NCBI GenBank assembly: GCA_022072055.1
Contig: JAJVIK010000012.1
Coordinates: 1-49,255, forward strand
Origin: a bacterium
GTDB taxonomy: Bacteria; Hinthialibacterota; Hinthialibacteria; OLB16
Reading direction: 5' to 3'
DNA: 49,255 bases
Shown here one piece after another: positions 3,303-44,856 of this stretch. The position numbers and the translations under genes were made by a program. Below the pieces are notes generated by a model, which worked only from the letters and a program-made list of their open reading frames with translations, did no database searches and was not told the origin of the DNA. The stretch's first letter is position 1; each line of letters opens with the position of its first letter.

Positions 3303-3379
3303 GCGGGAGTAGCTCAGTTGGCCAGAGCATCAGCCTTCCAAGCTGAGGGTCGCGGGTTCGAGCCCCGTCTCCCGCTCCA
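3303..3379 (+). tRNA. tRNA-Gly (anticodon TCC), prophage target
   Basis: This 77-nt cloverleaf has acceptor stem GCGGGAG pairing with CTCCCGC, D-arm GCTC..GAGC, anticodon stem TCAGC/GCTGA around loop CTTCCAA (anticodon TCC), T-arm GCGGG TTCGAGC CCCGT, and encoded TCCA at the 3' end. The prophage lies immediately downstream and its attL core covers the 3' 48 nt, so integration keeps the tRNA intact. The integrase stop codon lies inside it, on the opposite strand. Confidence 0.97.
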
Positions 3380-4508
3380 CAACTGAAACCAGCCGCCTTA
3401 ATAGACTTACAACCTCCTCACTGCCAGCCAGTATAGCAGAGATTCCCTCGCCTGTGTGCGTTTTTGTATGCGCATCCTGGCCCTCGAAAACCTTCCCCAA
3501 GGCCTCCACGATGGCTCTCCGCTCGTCTTCCCCTGAGTGGGAGTAGTGGGAGGTCATCCGGAAATCCGAGTGGCCCAGATGGTCTCTCGCCGCAGTCATT
3601 CCCGCCGTCTGGGTGAGGATCGATCCAACTGTGTGCCGGATCGTGTGTGCGCTCACTCCGGGGAGGCCTGCCCGTTTGGCTGTCAGCCGGATCCCGATCT
3701 TGAGGTCCAGCATCCGCCGACCGTCCGCGTGCTCGAAGACCCAGACAGACCCATCGCGCTTCTCCCGGAGGATCGCCTCCATGAGCGCGGAGGGGATCGC
3801 CACGGTCCGATCCTTGCGGTTCTTGATCCGCTTCCCCTTGGCCGGGTCATGCCTGAAGGTCACGGTCGAGGCTTCCGGCTCGAGGTCTCGCCACTCCAAT
3901 CCGGTAATCTCCCGATGCCTGGCCCCCGTGGCCCAGGCGAGAAGCAGGAAGCGCCGGACGTGGGCATGGAGCGCCGATTGATACAGCCTCCCGAATTCCT
4001 CCTCGGTGAGCCGGCGGGTGCGCCTGCCGGTGTCATCCGGCAAGCGGTCTGCCAGTTTGATCGACCGACAGGGGTTGCGCTCGATCACCTCATGGGCGAC
4101 CGCCACTTCCAAGGCGCGAGACAGGGCGTGGAAGTAATGCCTTCGGGTGGAGTTCTTCAGGGGCAGGGCGCGGAGCACGGTGAGCCACTGCTCCACCTTG
4201 CCTTTGGTCAGCGCGTGAATCGGCGTGGTCGCCGGGAAGTGGGTGAAGATGGCCTTCCAGTACGTATCGAAATTCGCGCGATGCCCAGGGCTGTAATCAC
4301 GCGCTTGGAGCATCATCTCTTTCGCCTGCGCGAGGGTCCAGGTGGAGGCCTGGCCTGACTGTCGCTTGACCTGTTCGGTCCACACCTTGCACCACTTTTC
4401 CGCGAGGGCCCGCGTGGTCACCTCGGTGGGCATGGTCTTTGAGCAGACCCGGCCATCGAGGCGGTATTTGAAGCGGAACCGTCCTCGAGATTTTTCAATC
4501 CACCCCAC
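3330..4508 (-). CDS. int: tyrosine recombinase integrase
   Basis: Integrase catalysing site-specific recombination between attP and the tRNA-Gly attB. In the prophage it is 392 residues. An N-terminal arm-binding and SAM-like core-binding region precedes a catalytic domain with TGARHREI (Arg about 197), HTIRH (His288, Arg291), LGHSDFR (His313) and nucleophile Tyr322 in TSHYSH. The last 16 residues, ending GLEPATLSLEG, are antisense tRNA sequence and the stop is supplied by the bacterial half of the tRNA. In the circular phage this frame would continue 28 residues further (see 44722-44807). The 5' end overlaps xis by 14 bp. Confidence 0.95.
   Translation of the reverse strand: MGWIEKSRGRFRFKYRLDGRVCSKTMPTEVTTRALAEKWCKVWTEQVKRQSGQASTWTLAQAKEMMLQARDYSPGHRANFDTYWKAIFTHFPATTPIHALTKGKVEQWLTVLRALPLKNSTRRHYFHALSRALEVAVAHEVIERNPCRSIKLADRLPDDTGRRTRRLTEEEFGRLYQSALHAHVRRFLLLAWATGARHREITGLEWRDLEPEASTVTFRHDPAKGKRIKNRKDRTVAIPSALMEAILREKRDGSVWVFEHADGRRMLDLKIGIRLTAKRAGLPGVSAHTIRHTVGSILTQTAGMTAARDHLGHSDFRMTSHYSHSGEDERRAIVEALGKVFEGQDAHTKTHTGEGISAILAGSEEVVSLLRRLVSVVERETGLEPATLSLEG
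3332..3380 (+). other. attL core repeat
   Basis: The first copy of the 49-bp direct repeat bounding the prophage. It begins AGCCTTCCAAGCTG and covers the anticodon loop, T-arm, acceptor 3' strand and TCCA of tRNA-Gly. Sequence identity with 44808-44856 is complete; the flanks diverge at once on both sides. Strand exchange must occur inside it, most likely around the anticodon-loop palindrome as for other tRNA-targeting integrases. Confidence 0.95.
3457..3475 (+). promoter_or_regulatory. candidate integrase arm-type site (P' side)
   Basis: The 19-bp sequence TGCGTTTTTGTATGCGCAT is identical to 44676-44694 at the other end of the prophage. In the circular phage the two copies would flank the attachment core at about 76 and 113 bp, in the same orientation, as arm-type integrase sites do. 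It sits inside the int coding sequence. Integrase binding is an inference from position. Confidence 0.6.
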
Positions 4509-4734
4509 TGCTCGACCTCCGCAATTGGATCACGTTGGACTCCCTGGGTTGCCCGCGCCGCATGGACAACTCCTCCTCGAATGCCTGCACGTCCTCACGC
4601 CGGAACCTCCAGCGGTTGCCCACACGGTAGTACGGCAGTCCCTCAGGAATCAACCGGGCGCGCACCGTGGGCACCGAGCAGCGGAAGTGCGCGGCCACGT
4701 CCGCGATGGACATTGGCGGGGTGAGGTCGATCAT
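4495..4734 (-). CDS. xis: excisionase / MerR-like helix-turn-helix protein
   Basis: A 79-residue basic protein with the winged-helix DNA-binding layout of phage excisionases: MSIADVAAHFRCSVPTVRARL forms the helix-turn-helix, followed by YYRVGNRWRFRREDVQAF, the usual wing of the excise/HTH_17 family. It would bend attachment-site DNA and direct integrase toward excision. Its ATG overlaps the stop of the upstream methyltransferase (ATGA) and its end overlaps int by 14 bp, so the three are translationally coupled. Confidence 0.85.
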   Translation of the reverse strand: MIDLTPPMSIADVAAHFRCSVPTVRARLIPEGLPYYRVGNRWRFRREDVQAFEEELSMRRGQPRESNVIQLRRSSSGVD

Positions 4735-41567: not shown

Positions 41568-42023
41568 TTAGCCTATGCTAACATACTCACGACGTGACAC
41601 AAGTTTTTCCACCGGAATCGATTTCCAGACCGTCCAATACTTCTTGCCGCGCGGTCGCTTTCCATCCCAGCCGAGGCGGTTCAAGTAGAAGTCCGGATTG
41701 GCGGTGATCGCTTCCAGGCGCTCCGCGCCGATTTTGATGGCATGGTAATGAAGGGACGCCGTCATTGAGGCTCCAAATCCCTTTCCTCGGTGTTCCGGAA
41801 GGACGTATATCCCCTTGAGGCGGAAGACTTTGTAGGTTCCCTCGAACAGACCACAGATGCCCACCGGTTCTCCTGACACGGAGGCAAGGCCGACAAACCA
41901 CCTCGTGCGGTTCCGCGTTGGCTTGAGGCAGACCCCCTCCTTCGCGGCTCGGGACGCCAAGGGGGCAATGTCGGTGGCGTGGTCCGCAGATCGCAGGAAA
42001 ACAGTCTGCGTCGGTGAGTTCAT
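41568..42023 (-). CDS. GNAT-family acetyltransferase-like protein
   Basis: 151 residues from MNSPTQTVFLRSADHATDIA; this ATG overlaps the stop of the ParB-domain gene (ATGA). Acetyl-CoA binding motif A is GIYVLPEHRGKGFGASM, with FVGLASVSGEPVGICGLFEG and YLNRLGWDG around it. Substrate is unknown. Late-cluster GNATs in phages sit in the IbrA/ParB block; a role in modifying a nucleoside or the DNA modification made there is possible but unproven. Confidence 0.8.
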   Translation of the reverse strand: MNSPTQTVFLRSADHATDIAPLASRAAKEGVCLKPTRNRTRWFVGLASVSGEPVGICGLFEGTYKVFRLKGIYVLPEHRGKGFGASMTASLHYHAIKIGAERLEAITANPDFYLNRLGWDGKRPRGKKYWTVWKSIPVEKLVSRREYVSIG

Positions 42024-42562
42024 CCGTTTGGCTCTCCTTGCACGGGATACCAGGCCTTTGAGTAGCGGTATTTGTCGAGGTTCTTGGCCTTGAAGATGCT
42101 GTTCTGATAGAGCAAGTGGACCTCCTGAATGGGCGCGCCGATCCCCGTGGCAATCTGTTGAGGATCGAGGCCATGGGTGTCGATCAGTTCCTGCACGATC
42201 TCCGCCATCCGGACGGCGACATGGCTTCCCTTTGCCCGGTTCATCCGGATCGTCATCATCATCGCTTCCCAGTCCGGCACAGTCAGAACGGCGACGGGAA
42301 CCCACCTGTTATATCTGCGGACCAGCTCGCGGTTCTCCTGGGCCAGGCGCCAGCGGTGGAATCCGTCGATGATTCGATTGGTGGCGTTGACGAGGATTGG
42401 CTGGACCCAACCCGTCTTGATGATCGAGAGCGCCAGGAGGTCCAGCTCGGCGTCAAAGACCACGTTCGGGTTGTAGGAGTTCGGGTTCAACTGGCCGGCA
42501 TCAACCCAACTGATTCGGGCAATGGGATCGTGCTGGAACGTTTCCTTGGTTTCGTGCTGCAC
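42020..42562 (-). CDS. ParB/Srx-domain protein (IbrB-like)
   Basis: 180 residues, GTG start after AGAGGAGG. The ParB N-terminal fold is visible in LNPNSYNPNVVFDAELDLLA, SIIKTGWVQPILVNATNRII and DGFHRWRLAQENREL (the GxHR nucleotide-binding motif as GFHR). Phage proteins of this type pair with PAPS-reductase-like IbrA; here its start lies 76 bp inside the IbrA gene. It lacks ParB's partition domains. Likely CTP/ATP-dependent accessory of the neighbouring enzyme. Confidence 0.82.
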   Translation of the reverse strand: MQHETKETFQHDPIARISWVDAGQLNPNSYNPNVVFDAELDLLALSIIKTGWVQPILVNATNRIIDGFHRWRLAQENRELVRRYNRWVPVAVLTVPDWEAMMMTIRMNRAKGSHVAVRMAEIVQELIDTHGLDPQQIATGIGAPIQEVHLLYQNSIFKAKNLDKYRYSKAWYPVQGEPNG

Positions 42563-43590
42563 GGCAAAATCCTCCTCTTAAAGGCTCCCGCCAAAAAGTA
42601 ATCCAGAATGTGAATCACCGGGTAGGCTTCGGGGTTGTTGTGGTGCTTCCGGGAGGCGTCCTCGAAGCGCTCCTCGGCCAGCTCCCGCTCCTCTCCGTCA
42701 AACATGTCATCGAGCATCTGTTGAACGGTCTGTAGGGTCTCGCCATACCTCGACCGGAAATAGTTGAGGTCCATCTCCTGGTAGTAGCGTTCCTGAACGC
42801 GCATGTCCGGGAAAATCCTGACCACGTTCTGGTAGAGCTCAGGATCGACCGCGCGTAAACGGTCGAAGCGTTTGGCCGCTTCGGCGTGGATCGGCGTTGA
42901 GACCCTCAGATTGTGGCCGGCCAGGTGCTCGGCATCATAGATCGGGCAGTAAGGAATTTCGGAGTCGTGGAGGAATTTGAAGACGTCGTTCTCGGTCCAG
43001 TCGTAGATGGGCTTGACCAGGTTCACATTCCTGGCGCCCTTCGTGGAGCAGATGTAGTTCTCGTTGAGTTTCGCCATGCAGGAGGCCAATCGGATGAGCG
43101 ATTCATCCGCGCGCATGCCGTTGAGCAGGGCCACCTTGCCTCGAAAGTTCTCCGCCACGAAGGCGTCCATCGTGTACTGATCGAAGACCCGATCATCTCC
43201 AGGTGGGAGAGTAATCGCCCACGCTGGCTTGTCCCGAACCCACTCTCGACCCGGGTCCCACTGCACATACTGCTCAGTCCTCCCGAGGACGTACTTGTGG
43301 GAGCGAAGGGGGACCGCGTACCAGAGCATCTTCACCCACGGCTGGCGGCGGTAGGAATCCACGAAGTCCACGACCGCCCTGGGAATCAGCTCCTCATCCC
43401 GGAAGATCACGTGGACCGAGGAGATGCCGCGCTCGGCGGAGATCTCACGAACTAAGTGGAGTACGACCAGGGAGTCCTTCCCACCTGAGAAGCAGACCGC
43501 CACCGAGTCGAAGATGTCGAAAATGTGCCGGATGCGATTCCTCGCCTCGGTCAGCACGTCCACATCGATGTACTTACGGCTCCGGGCCAT
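42487..43590 (-). CDS. PAPS reductase/PP-loop enzyme (IbrA-like)
   Basis: 367 residues. PP-loop SGGKDS (35-40) for ATP pyrophosphatase activity, followed by VIFRDEELIPRAVVDFVDSY, GMRADESLIRLA and LVKPIYDWTENDVFKFLHDS, CPIYDAEHLAGHNLRVSTP, as in DUF3440/IbrA proteins related to sulfur-transfer enzymes such as DndC. The C-terminal tail after DYFLAGAF overlaps the IbrB-like gene. Substrate is unknown; IbrA/IbrB pairs are reported as regulators of prophage gene expression, and a DNA or nucleotide modification role is plausible. Confidence 0.85.
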   Translation of the reverse strand: MARSRKYIDVDVLTEARNRIRHIFDIFDSVAVCFSGGKDSLVVLHLVREISAERGISSVHVIFRDEELIPRAVVDFVDSYRRQPWVKMLWYAVPLRSHKYVLGRTEQYVQWDPGREWVRDKPAWAITLPPGDDRVFDQYTMDAFVAENFRGKVALLNGMRADESLIRLASCMAKLNENYICSTKGARNVNLVKPIYDWTENDVFKFLHDSEIPYCPIYDAEHLAGHNLRVSTPIHAEAAKRFDRLRAVDPELYQNVVRIFPDMRVQERYYQEMDLNYFRSRYGETLQTVQQMLDDMFDGEERELAEERFEDASRKHHNNPEAYPVIHILDYFLAGAFKRRILPCSTKPRKRSSTIPLPESVGLMPAS

Positions 43591-44227
43591 CGTACCCTTC
43601 TCGAATCATGTGGTCACGGATGTAAGAGGCAAGACGTTCCCCGATAGTCTCAGCCGTTGGGAACTCACCCTTGAGCCATTTCAGGAACTCGAACCACAAG
43701 TCCTGCTGGCCAGTCGTGTCGAAGATGATGTTATAGGCGATCACTGGCTGGGGCGCGTCCTTGGCGCGCTGAGCACCGTTTTTCCTGGCCGTGGCCTCAG
43801 TGACGGATGCCTCCTTCTTCGCCTGCAACGACGCAAGGAGGTCCTTCATCGCCGCCTTCTTGGTCGAGATGCCAGAGAGAATCTCTGCGAGAAGCTTTTC
43901 GTTCCGGTTGGCCAGGGAGGCGATTGGATCGAGCGTCGCAAGGAGGTACTCGGCCTCCCTGTCGGTCACGTCGAGGACGGCGACCCGCATCTCCTGATCG
44001 GGGAGGAGATCACCCCACAGGTGACCGTCGATCCAGGTCAGATTTCCCTCGTGCTCGTAGACCAGGGGCACGCGCGCACTGCCCACCTCTTGGAGTGAGG
44101 CGGCCAAAGCCGCCCGTTGGCTCTCGGGATGGACCCTCCAATTTTTCGGGTGAGGGCGGATATCGCCCACCCGCACCGTGCGAATCTCACGGACACGGTC
44201 ACGGGTTCGGATTGACTTCCGCTTCAT
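43574..44227 (-). CDS. second ParB-domain protein
   Basis: 217 residues. IRTVRVGDIRPHPKNWRVHP, RAALAASLQEVGSARVPLVY and LTWIDGHLWGDLLP give the ParB-like fold, with GHLW replacing the usual GHRR of the nuclease/CTP motif. The C-terminal part, AYNIIFDTTGQQDLWFEFLK, is separate. It overlaps IbrA by 17 bp, so IbrA is flanked by two ParB-domain proteins. A modification-site methylase or nuclease seen in some relatives is absent. Confidence 0.78.
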   Translation of the reverse strand: MKRKSIRTRDRVREIRTVRVGDIRPHPKNWRVHPESQRAALAASLQEVGSARVPLVYEHEGNLTWIDGHLWGDLLPDQEMRVAVLDVTDREAEYLLATLDPIASLANRNEKLLAEILSGISTKKAAMKDLLASLQAKKEASVTEATARKNGAQRAKDAPQPVIAYNIIFDTTGQQDLWFEFLKWLKGEFPTAETIGERLASYIRDHMIREGYDGPEP

Positions 44228-44694
44228 GATTTCTTCCCCCTTTTCCGAATACGCTTAACGAGCTTCCACTTCCTCGCTTGGCTCGGATGCCATGGCGCGA
44301 GAACCTCACAGAAGGCGAGGGTGATTGCGCGGAGGTAATAGGCAAATGGCTCCTGGTTTTCTGGCGTATACCGAATACCCCGGTCCTCAAGAACGCGCAT
44401 GACTAGGTGGAAGAGCTCATGCGTCAGGGTGGCAATCTGCTCGTTGTACCACTCGAACCGGGGAAGCCAGACGAGTCGGACGATGAGGCCTTCCTCTGGG
44501 TTTTCGAGCGTTGTGAAGAAACCGGTATGGAACGGGGTAGCTCCAATATCGGCCCCAAACTTACGCTTCACCCAGCGACGGACCTGGGGGAGATCGGAGT
44601 CCACACACAGATAGATCACCTCTCCGTACATTGGGTCCTTGACCAGGACGGGGCGGAAGGGCGGTTTCCGCTGTATGCGTTTTTGTATGCGCAT
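44224..44694 (-). CDS. zincin-like metalloprotease-type protein
   Basis: 156 residues from MRIQKRIQRKPPFRPVLVKD; GCGAGGAAA precedes this ATG, which is favoured over the GTG six codons before. The HExxH-type motif THELFHLVMRVLEDRG suggests a zinc-dependent protease fold, with EWYNEQIATL before it and EPFAYYLRAITLAFCEVL after it. Small phage zincins like this have no established substrate. Its 5' end contains the right arm-type repeat. It is the first gene after attR. Confidence 0.68.
   Translation of the reverse strand: MRIQKRIQRKPPFRPVLVKDPMYGEVIYLCVDSDLPQVRRWVKRKFGADIGATPFHTGFFTTLENPEEGLIVRLVWLPRFEWYNEQIATLTHELFHLVMRVLEDRGIRYTPENQEPFAYYLRAITLAFCEVLAPWHPSQARKWKLVKRIRKRGKKS
44676..44694 (+). 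promoter_or_regulatory. candidate integrase arm-type site (P side)
   Basis: Identical 19 bp to 3457-3475 (TGCGTTTTTGTATGCGCAT). It overlaps the first codons of the zincin gene. Together with the left copy it brackets the core in the circular phage. Confidence 0.6.
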
Positions 44695-44721
44695 TTTCCT
44701 CGCCTGGTTCACTTTCCTTGC

Positions 44722-44807
44722 CTAAGCGACCCTTTCAGACCGCTCGGATTTCTCAATGTTTTCCAGTATTTTCAGGAGGTTGACGGTTGTTGCCGAACCA
44801 CTGTCGA
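44722..44807 (-). other. phage-form C-terminal coding extension of integrase
   Basis: In the circular phage, the int frame leaves the core here as FDSGSATTVNLLKILENIEK then SERSERVA and TAG, 28 residues beyond the prophage version, giving a 420-residue integrase. In the prophage this segment is attached to host sequence and disconnected from int. A leucine/isoleucine helix is predicted (VNLLKILENIEK). Confidence 0.75.
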
Positions 44808-44856
44808 AGCCTTCCAAGCTGAGGGTCGCGGGTTCGAGCCCCGTCTCCCGCTCCAC
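44808..44856 (+). other. attR core repeat (tRNA-Gly 3' remnant)
   Basis: Second 49-bp copy of the attachment core, identical to 3332-3380. It is a 3' tRNA fragment with T-arm and acceptor strand but no 5' half, so not a functional tRNA. Confidence 0.95.

Follow-up and report, generated by a model that had tools for sequence, protein, structure and literature searches.

Does the integration of a temperate phage change its integrase when the attachment site lies inside the integrase gene, and is such a change of any consequence to the phage? This question is raised by a prophage of about 41.5 kb found in a 49,255-nucleotide stretch of bacterial DNA (the window, meaning that whole stretch at its full length), which is contig C22 of a 5.86-Mb genome; the phylum was sampled through 14 genomes. 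The prophage is temperate and siphophage-like, and it carries genes for terminase, portal, head, tape measure, excisionase-like and integrase proteins between two exact 49-bp repeats. The maximal identity between its ends covers 49 of 49 positions (3332-3380 equals 44808-44856), the distance from core to core is 41,476 bp, and the repeated core is the 3' portion of a tRNA-Gly(TCC) gene. The ends are described by the following features:

3303 to 3379, plus strand: host tRNA-Gly(TCC) gene rebuilt at attL, its 5' part being host DNA and its 3' part core (ARAGORN; neighbourhood in sister genome G001)
3332 to 3380, plus strand: attL copy of the 49-bp identity core (exact repeat)
44808 to 44856, plus strand: attR copy of the 49-bp core (exact repeat)

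Upstream of the terminase gene there are, besides, PAPS-reductase-like and ParB/methyltransferase-like genes (42487-44227) and a GNAT-like gene (41568-42305), all of which may be part of a DNA modification or moron cassette.

According to ARAGORN, there is one intact tRNA-Gly(TCC), at 3303-3379, which is completed by the left repeat. Genome-wide, the exact core occurs in these two copies only, together with a tRNA-Gly(CCC) paralogue with three mismatches on another contig, and no copy of the exact core was present in the viral contigs searched. The search for an empty site starting from the right-hand host gene yielded relatives with no tRNA beside that gene, while the search starting from the left-hand gene succeeded for one relative, the sister genome G001. 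In G001, the same phosphofructokinase (pfk) gene is followed by tRNA-Gly(TCC), and a second copy of the core is absent from the flank examined. This shared neighbourhood supports the view that tRNA-Gly(TCC) is host DNA.

The integrase gene and its putative continuation are located as follows:

3330 to 4508, minus strand: tyrosine integrase, prophage form, 392 aa (PF00589, 4.2e-19; PHROG integrase, 2e-51, residues 6-351)
44722 to 44808, minus strand: phage-only extension of int, 28 codons plus TAG, contiguous with int in the circle only (in-silico attP)
4495 to 4734, minus strand: excisionase-like HTH protein whose gene overlaps the int start by 14 bp (PHROG excisionase, 1.8e-8; PF12728)

A sequence-only reading of this DNA had proposed that the core lies within the int frame, and this is borne out by the exact repeat: the frame of 392 codons runs from phage DNA into the core. 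In the prophage, as was also proposed, int ends at a TGA (3332-3330) supplied by the tRNA gene, or more exactly with a T that belongs to the core and a GA that belongs to the host portion of the tRNA. In G001, the tRNA reads TGT where the present one gives TGA; the stop used in the prophage thus depends on the present host allele and is not fixed at the site. The circular phage and its attP were reconstructed by joining the prophage ends and are, in that sense, inferred; since both cores are identical, the resulting attP sequence is independent of the position of the crossover within the core. In this in-silico attP, int stays open for 28 residues past the core (FDSGSATTVNLLKILENIEKSERSERVA, 44808-44725, the first base belonging to the core) and stops at a TAG (44724-44722), giving a product of 420 aa that ends in ...SERSERVA. 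The coordinates, the stops and the two lengths of the earlier reading, 420 residues in the circle and 392 in the prophage, were all reproduced. If int is translated in both states, integration must then replace the C-terminus of the integrase, from 420 to 392 residues.

An arrangement of this kind is not without precedent. In Mx8, a phage of Myxococcus xanthus with the integrase forms IntP and IntX, attP lies within the int coding sequence, and integration is reported to create a new int 3' end and a different C-terminus, which does not inactivate int, its behaviour being changed (PMC6070905, with the title of Tojo et al. 1996 among its references). Islander takes such integrases into account: its authors speak of those that "extend across attP" and give Mx8 and SSV as examples (PMC4383910). 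As in Mx8, the present attP core is inside the int frame, and integration in silico changes the C-terminus (420 to 392) while leaving the catalytic domain whole. By its anatomy, read from the DNA, the present phage is of the Mx8 kind; the arrangement is already known, and Mx8 is its true precedent. The likeness has one limit: functional consequences were measured for Mx8, whereas the present case is known from sequence. The archaeal "suicidal" integrases of the SSV type also have the attachment site inside the integrase gene (PMC8371274). Unlike those, which are split and inactivated, the present gene has only the last 28 of its 420 residues separated.

The sequence-only reading had looked elsewhere, namely to the integration-dependent switches of mycobacteriophages, and had suggested that the ERVA tail, weakly similar to an ssrA-type end, could make the two forms differ in stability. 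In mycobacteriophage BPs, attP lies in the repressor gene, the repressor is shortened on integration, and it is the longer repressor that bears an ssrA-like tag (PMC4557955). The resemblance holds inasmuch as both sites lie in a coding frame and the prophage protein is the shorter one (by 33 residues in BPs and 28 here). Nevertheless, the present attP is located in int and at the beginning of a next gene of unknown function in PHROG, and the protein shortened here is the integrase, not a repressor, so the parallel drawn with those switches does not hold. Nor does the supposed tag: the tmRNA (ssrA) tag of the host is ADYDMALAA, which has only the last Ala in common with ERVA or SERSERVA. The corresponding explanation, that the phage-only C-terminus sends Int-420 to proteolysis and only the prophage form is stable, can point to the terminal VA as a small hydrophobic end. 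Yet [AV]A endings occur in 4 of the 38 other minus-strand ORFs of the phage, including the tape measure protein (NVGVA), and an unstable Int-420 would hinder the very integration step for which it is needed. We give this explanation hardly any credence.

As for the enzyme itself, it belongs to the tyrosine recombinases with an R...HxxR...Y catalytic domain (PF00589, 69.4 bits against a cut-off of 27.1), and the HTIRH motif and the SHY tyrosine are conserved in a three-sequence alignment. The match to the integrase PHROG profile covers residues 6-351. In the predicted model, a low-confidence one (mean pLDDT 69.6, three sequences), the last catalytic helix spans residues 327-340 and is followed by a disordered linker (344-355) and a helix (364-381). 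The nearest relative, L003, encodes on a 6-kb contig an integrase that is 39-42% identical (41% in the alignment), and the identity is strong only up to residue 345 or so; neither a tRNA nor a further copy of the repeat was found on that contig. The swap point, residue 392, is located some 50 residues beyond the end of the catalytic fold and, since it falls outside this fold, both Int-392 and Int-420 are expected to be catalytically competent.

Competent forms could still differ in behaviour. Int-420 might be the form suited to integration, and the Int-392 of the lysogen might be altered in activity or specificity, in such a way that integration itself would regulate the enzyme. C-terminal tails modulate tyrosine recombinases (lambda Int, for instance), which counts in favour of such regulation, and the extension consists of 28 residues of plausible helix. 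The geometry is, in addition, that of Mx8, for which the new int 3' end is reported to go with changed integrase behaviour (PMC6070905). Against this stand the distance of the swap from the catalytic fold, an extension length that is ordinary by chance, and the lack of a conserved extension in the viral, genome, phage and plasmid collections searched, which contained no close relatives for testing its conservation. Taken together, regulation through the tail seems unlikely; if true, it would amount to a simple self-recording switch.

How ordinary the extension is can be judged in two ways. First, when the DNA downstream of the core is shuffled with its dinucleotides preserved, 29-34% of the shuffles stay open for at least 28 codons, and the present core is open in each of its three antisense frames; the length of the extension is, therefore, not significant in itself. 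Over the final 49 nt of 35 tRNAs taken from these genomes, any given antisense frame is open in 19 to 29 of them. With a core in frame, integration necessarily changes the C-terminus unless a stop follows immediately. Second, a tRNA overlaps, or lies no more than 500 bp from, 13 of the 122 integrase-like ORFs of the phylum, and in 6 of these 13 (the window, L100, L109, L117, L129 and L131) the 3' end of int overlaps the tRNA in antisense. The tails of the five others differ, and no attR partner was found for them in the stretches examined. Integrases that overlap a tRNA often end in the antisense T-loop peptide G(L/I)EPxT: where the overlap reaches at least 35 bp (L100, L109, L117, L129), all use the same antisense T-loop frame with G(L/I)EPxT at the C-terminus, the other frames being mostly open too. 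In Rhizobium phage RHph_TM34, too, an integrase gene points into a similar tRNA-Gly 3' core that closely follows it; unlike the present int, that of RHph_TM34 stops 42 bp before the core and its protein is unchanged by integration, which means that overlap between int and core is not required. On either side of the RHph_TM34 core lie the two halves of an inverted repeat, ATTGAAATCATT / AATGATTTCAAT (L161:2440-2640). Judging from these loci, the int-tRNA overlap appears common in the phylum, neither fixed nor required.

The attachment site itself can be described beyond what the earlier reading contained, that is, as a complete in-silico attP with core, overlap and both pairs of arm repeats. 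Its elements, and the gene reached by one of its arms, are:

3335 to 3341, plus strand: candidate 7-bp overlap (crossover), the anticodon loop CTTCCAA (inferred from the sequence and the anticodon-loop habit)
3453 to 3472, plus strand: P-arm repeat pair TGTGTGCG / TGTATGCG, 12-bp period, within int codons (DAHTKTHTGEG) (repeat search)
44672 to 44691, plus strand: P'-arm repeat pair, TGTATGCG twice, 12-bp period, within the 5' end of the next gene (repeat search)
44224 to 44712, minus strand: next phage gene in the circle, 162 aa, HELFH motif, PHROG 1365 of unknown function (ORF and PHROG match)

Tyrosine integrases that target tRNA genes habitually use the anticodon loop as their overlap. Here the stem arms TCAGC and GCTGA enclose the anticodon loop CTTCCAA, and the 49-bp identity begins three bases ahead of this loop. 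The direct repeats TGTRTGCG start at 3453 and 3465 and at 44672 and 44684, that is, +115/+127 and -142/-130 relative to the overlap. Both pairs have the same orientation and lie on the phage side, almost symmetrically about the overlap, and the pattern has only two further occurrences on that strand of the window. These paired repeats are likely to be arm-type Int sites. The P-arm pair falls in int codons just beyond the catalytic domain and, with one pair inside int and the other inside the next gene, the attP is embedded in coding DNA.

Similar repeats are seen elsewhere in the phylum. L003 has a different pair, ACTCGTGCCCAAAC twice, also with a 12-bp period, in the corresponding place of int (L003:1932-1955), and a repeated stretch with 11-12 bp spacing occurs within, or close to, the 3' coding end of int in L117, L124, L129, L134 and L109. 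As background, an exact 8-mer at a spacing of 12 occurs in 1 of 145 windows of the phage, under a criterion not identical to that applied to these loci. The direct repeats with 11-12 bp spacing probably represent arm-type sites contained in the int tail, and a P arm embedded in this tail may be a general habit in the phylum.

In the in-silico circle, the gene at 44224-44712 starts 9 nt past the stop of the 420-residue form, and 25 of the 36 gaps between phage genes measure at most 20 bp. This closeness bears on another explanation, in which the relevant effect of integration would be on transcription: in the circle, int would be read through attP into the packaging and structural cluster, whereas integration would cut this read-through and point int antisense of tRNA-Gly. 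Lambda sib retroregulation, where integration parts int from a downstream RNA sequence, provides a precedent. In agreement with it, int and the leftward cluster that begins at 44712 (terminase, portal, head, tape measure) are on the same strand and adjacent in the circle only, and a scan of the minus strand between 44500 and 45056, covering one sigma factor type, found no promoter-like or terminator-like site at the junction. The late cluster may, nevertheless, have its own activator-dependent promoter, and we regard read-through of this kind as decidedly improbable. Highly improbable is the combination of both effects, by which integration would at the same time remove a phage-only helical Int tail and cut the read-through of int into the packaging and structural operon; if true, a single recombination event would reset both integrase activity and late transcription.

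The explanation we favour, and consider rather likely, is that int and attP form one compact module in which the tail swap is a tolerated by-product, with a modest effect on activity at most. The last 45 or so codons of int contain the putative Int-binding sites of the P arm together with the tRNA-Gly core, and the P' arm would fall in the extension of int and the beginning of the gene that follows. The infecting circle would make Int-420 for integration at tRNA-Gly, and the prophage would make Int-392 for excision together with the excisionase-like protein, both forms retaining the whole catalytic domain. Support for this explanation comes from (i) the exact core, frame and stops, and the arm-type repeats placed almost symmetrically about the overlap; (ii) the end of the PHROG match at residue 351, the last catalytic helix of the model and the limit of strong identity to L003; (iii) the ordinary length of the extension; (iv) the open antisense frames of the core; (v) the other integrases that overlap tRNAs; and (vi) the TGT of G001 and the early int stop of RHph_TM34. 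Three points count against it: (i) a 28-codon tail whose stop is 9 nt from the next start fits the tight gene packing of the phage, so the extension may be under selection; (ii) the extension weakly resembles the helix of the int tail (AGSEEVVSLLRRLVSV / SGSATTVNLLKILENI; permutation p 0.012, post hoc); and (iii) Mx8 shows that such swaps can alter function.

This locus provides a new case of an integrase running across attP, in a sparsely sampled phylum far from Myxococcus. Integrase frames that run into tRNA attachment cores look common there (6 of the 13 with a tRNA within 500 bp) and, in consequence, the integrase lengths annotated in prophages may often differ from those of the phages, a difference that matters when integrases are cloned as tools. 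Two other integrase loci are worth recording. Another integrase of the same genome (G000:C2:370489-371169) is situated 46 bp from a weak, below-threshold match to a tmRNA model, and ARAGORN returned neither tRNA nor tmRNA at that site. Finally, four tyrosine-recombinase domains are arranged in tandem on one strand within 3.6 kb at G003:C46:6547-10138.
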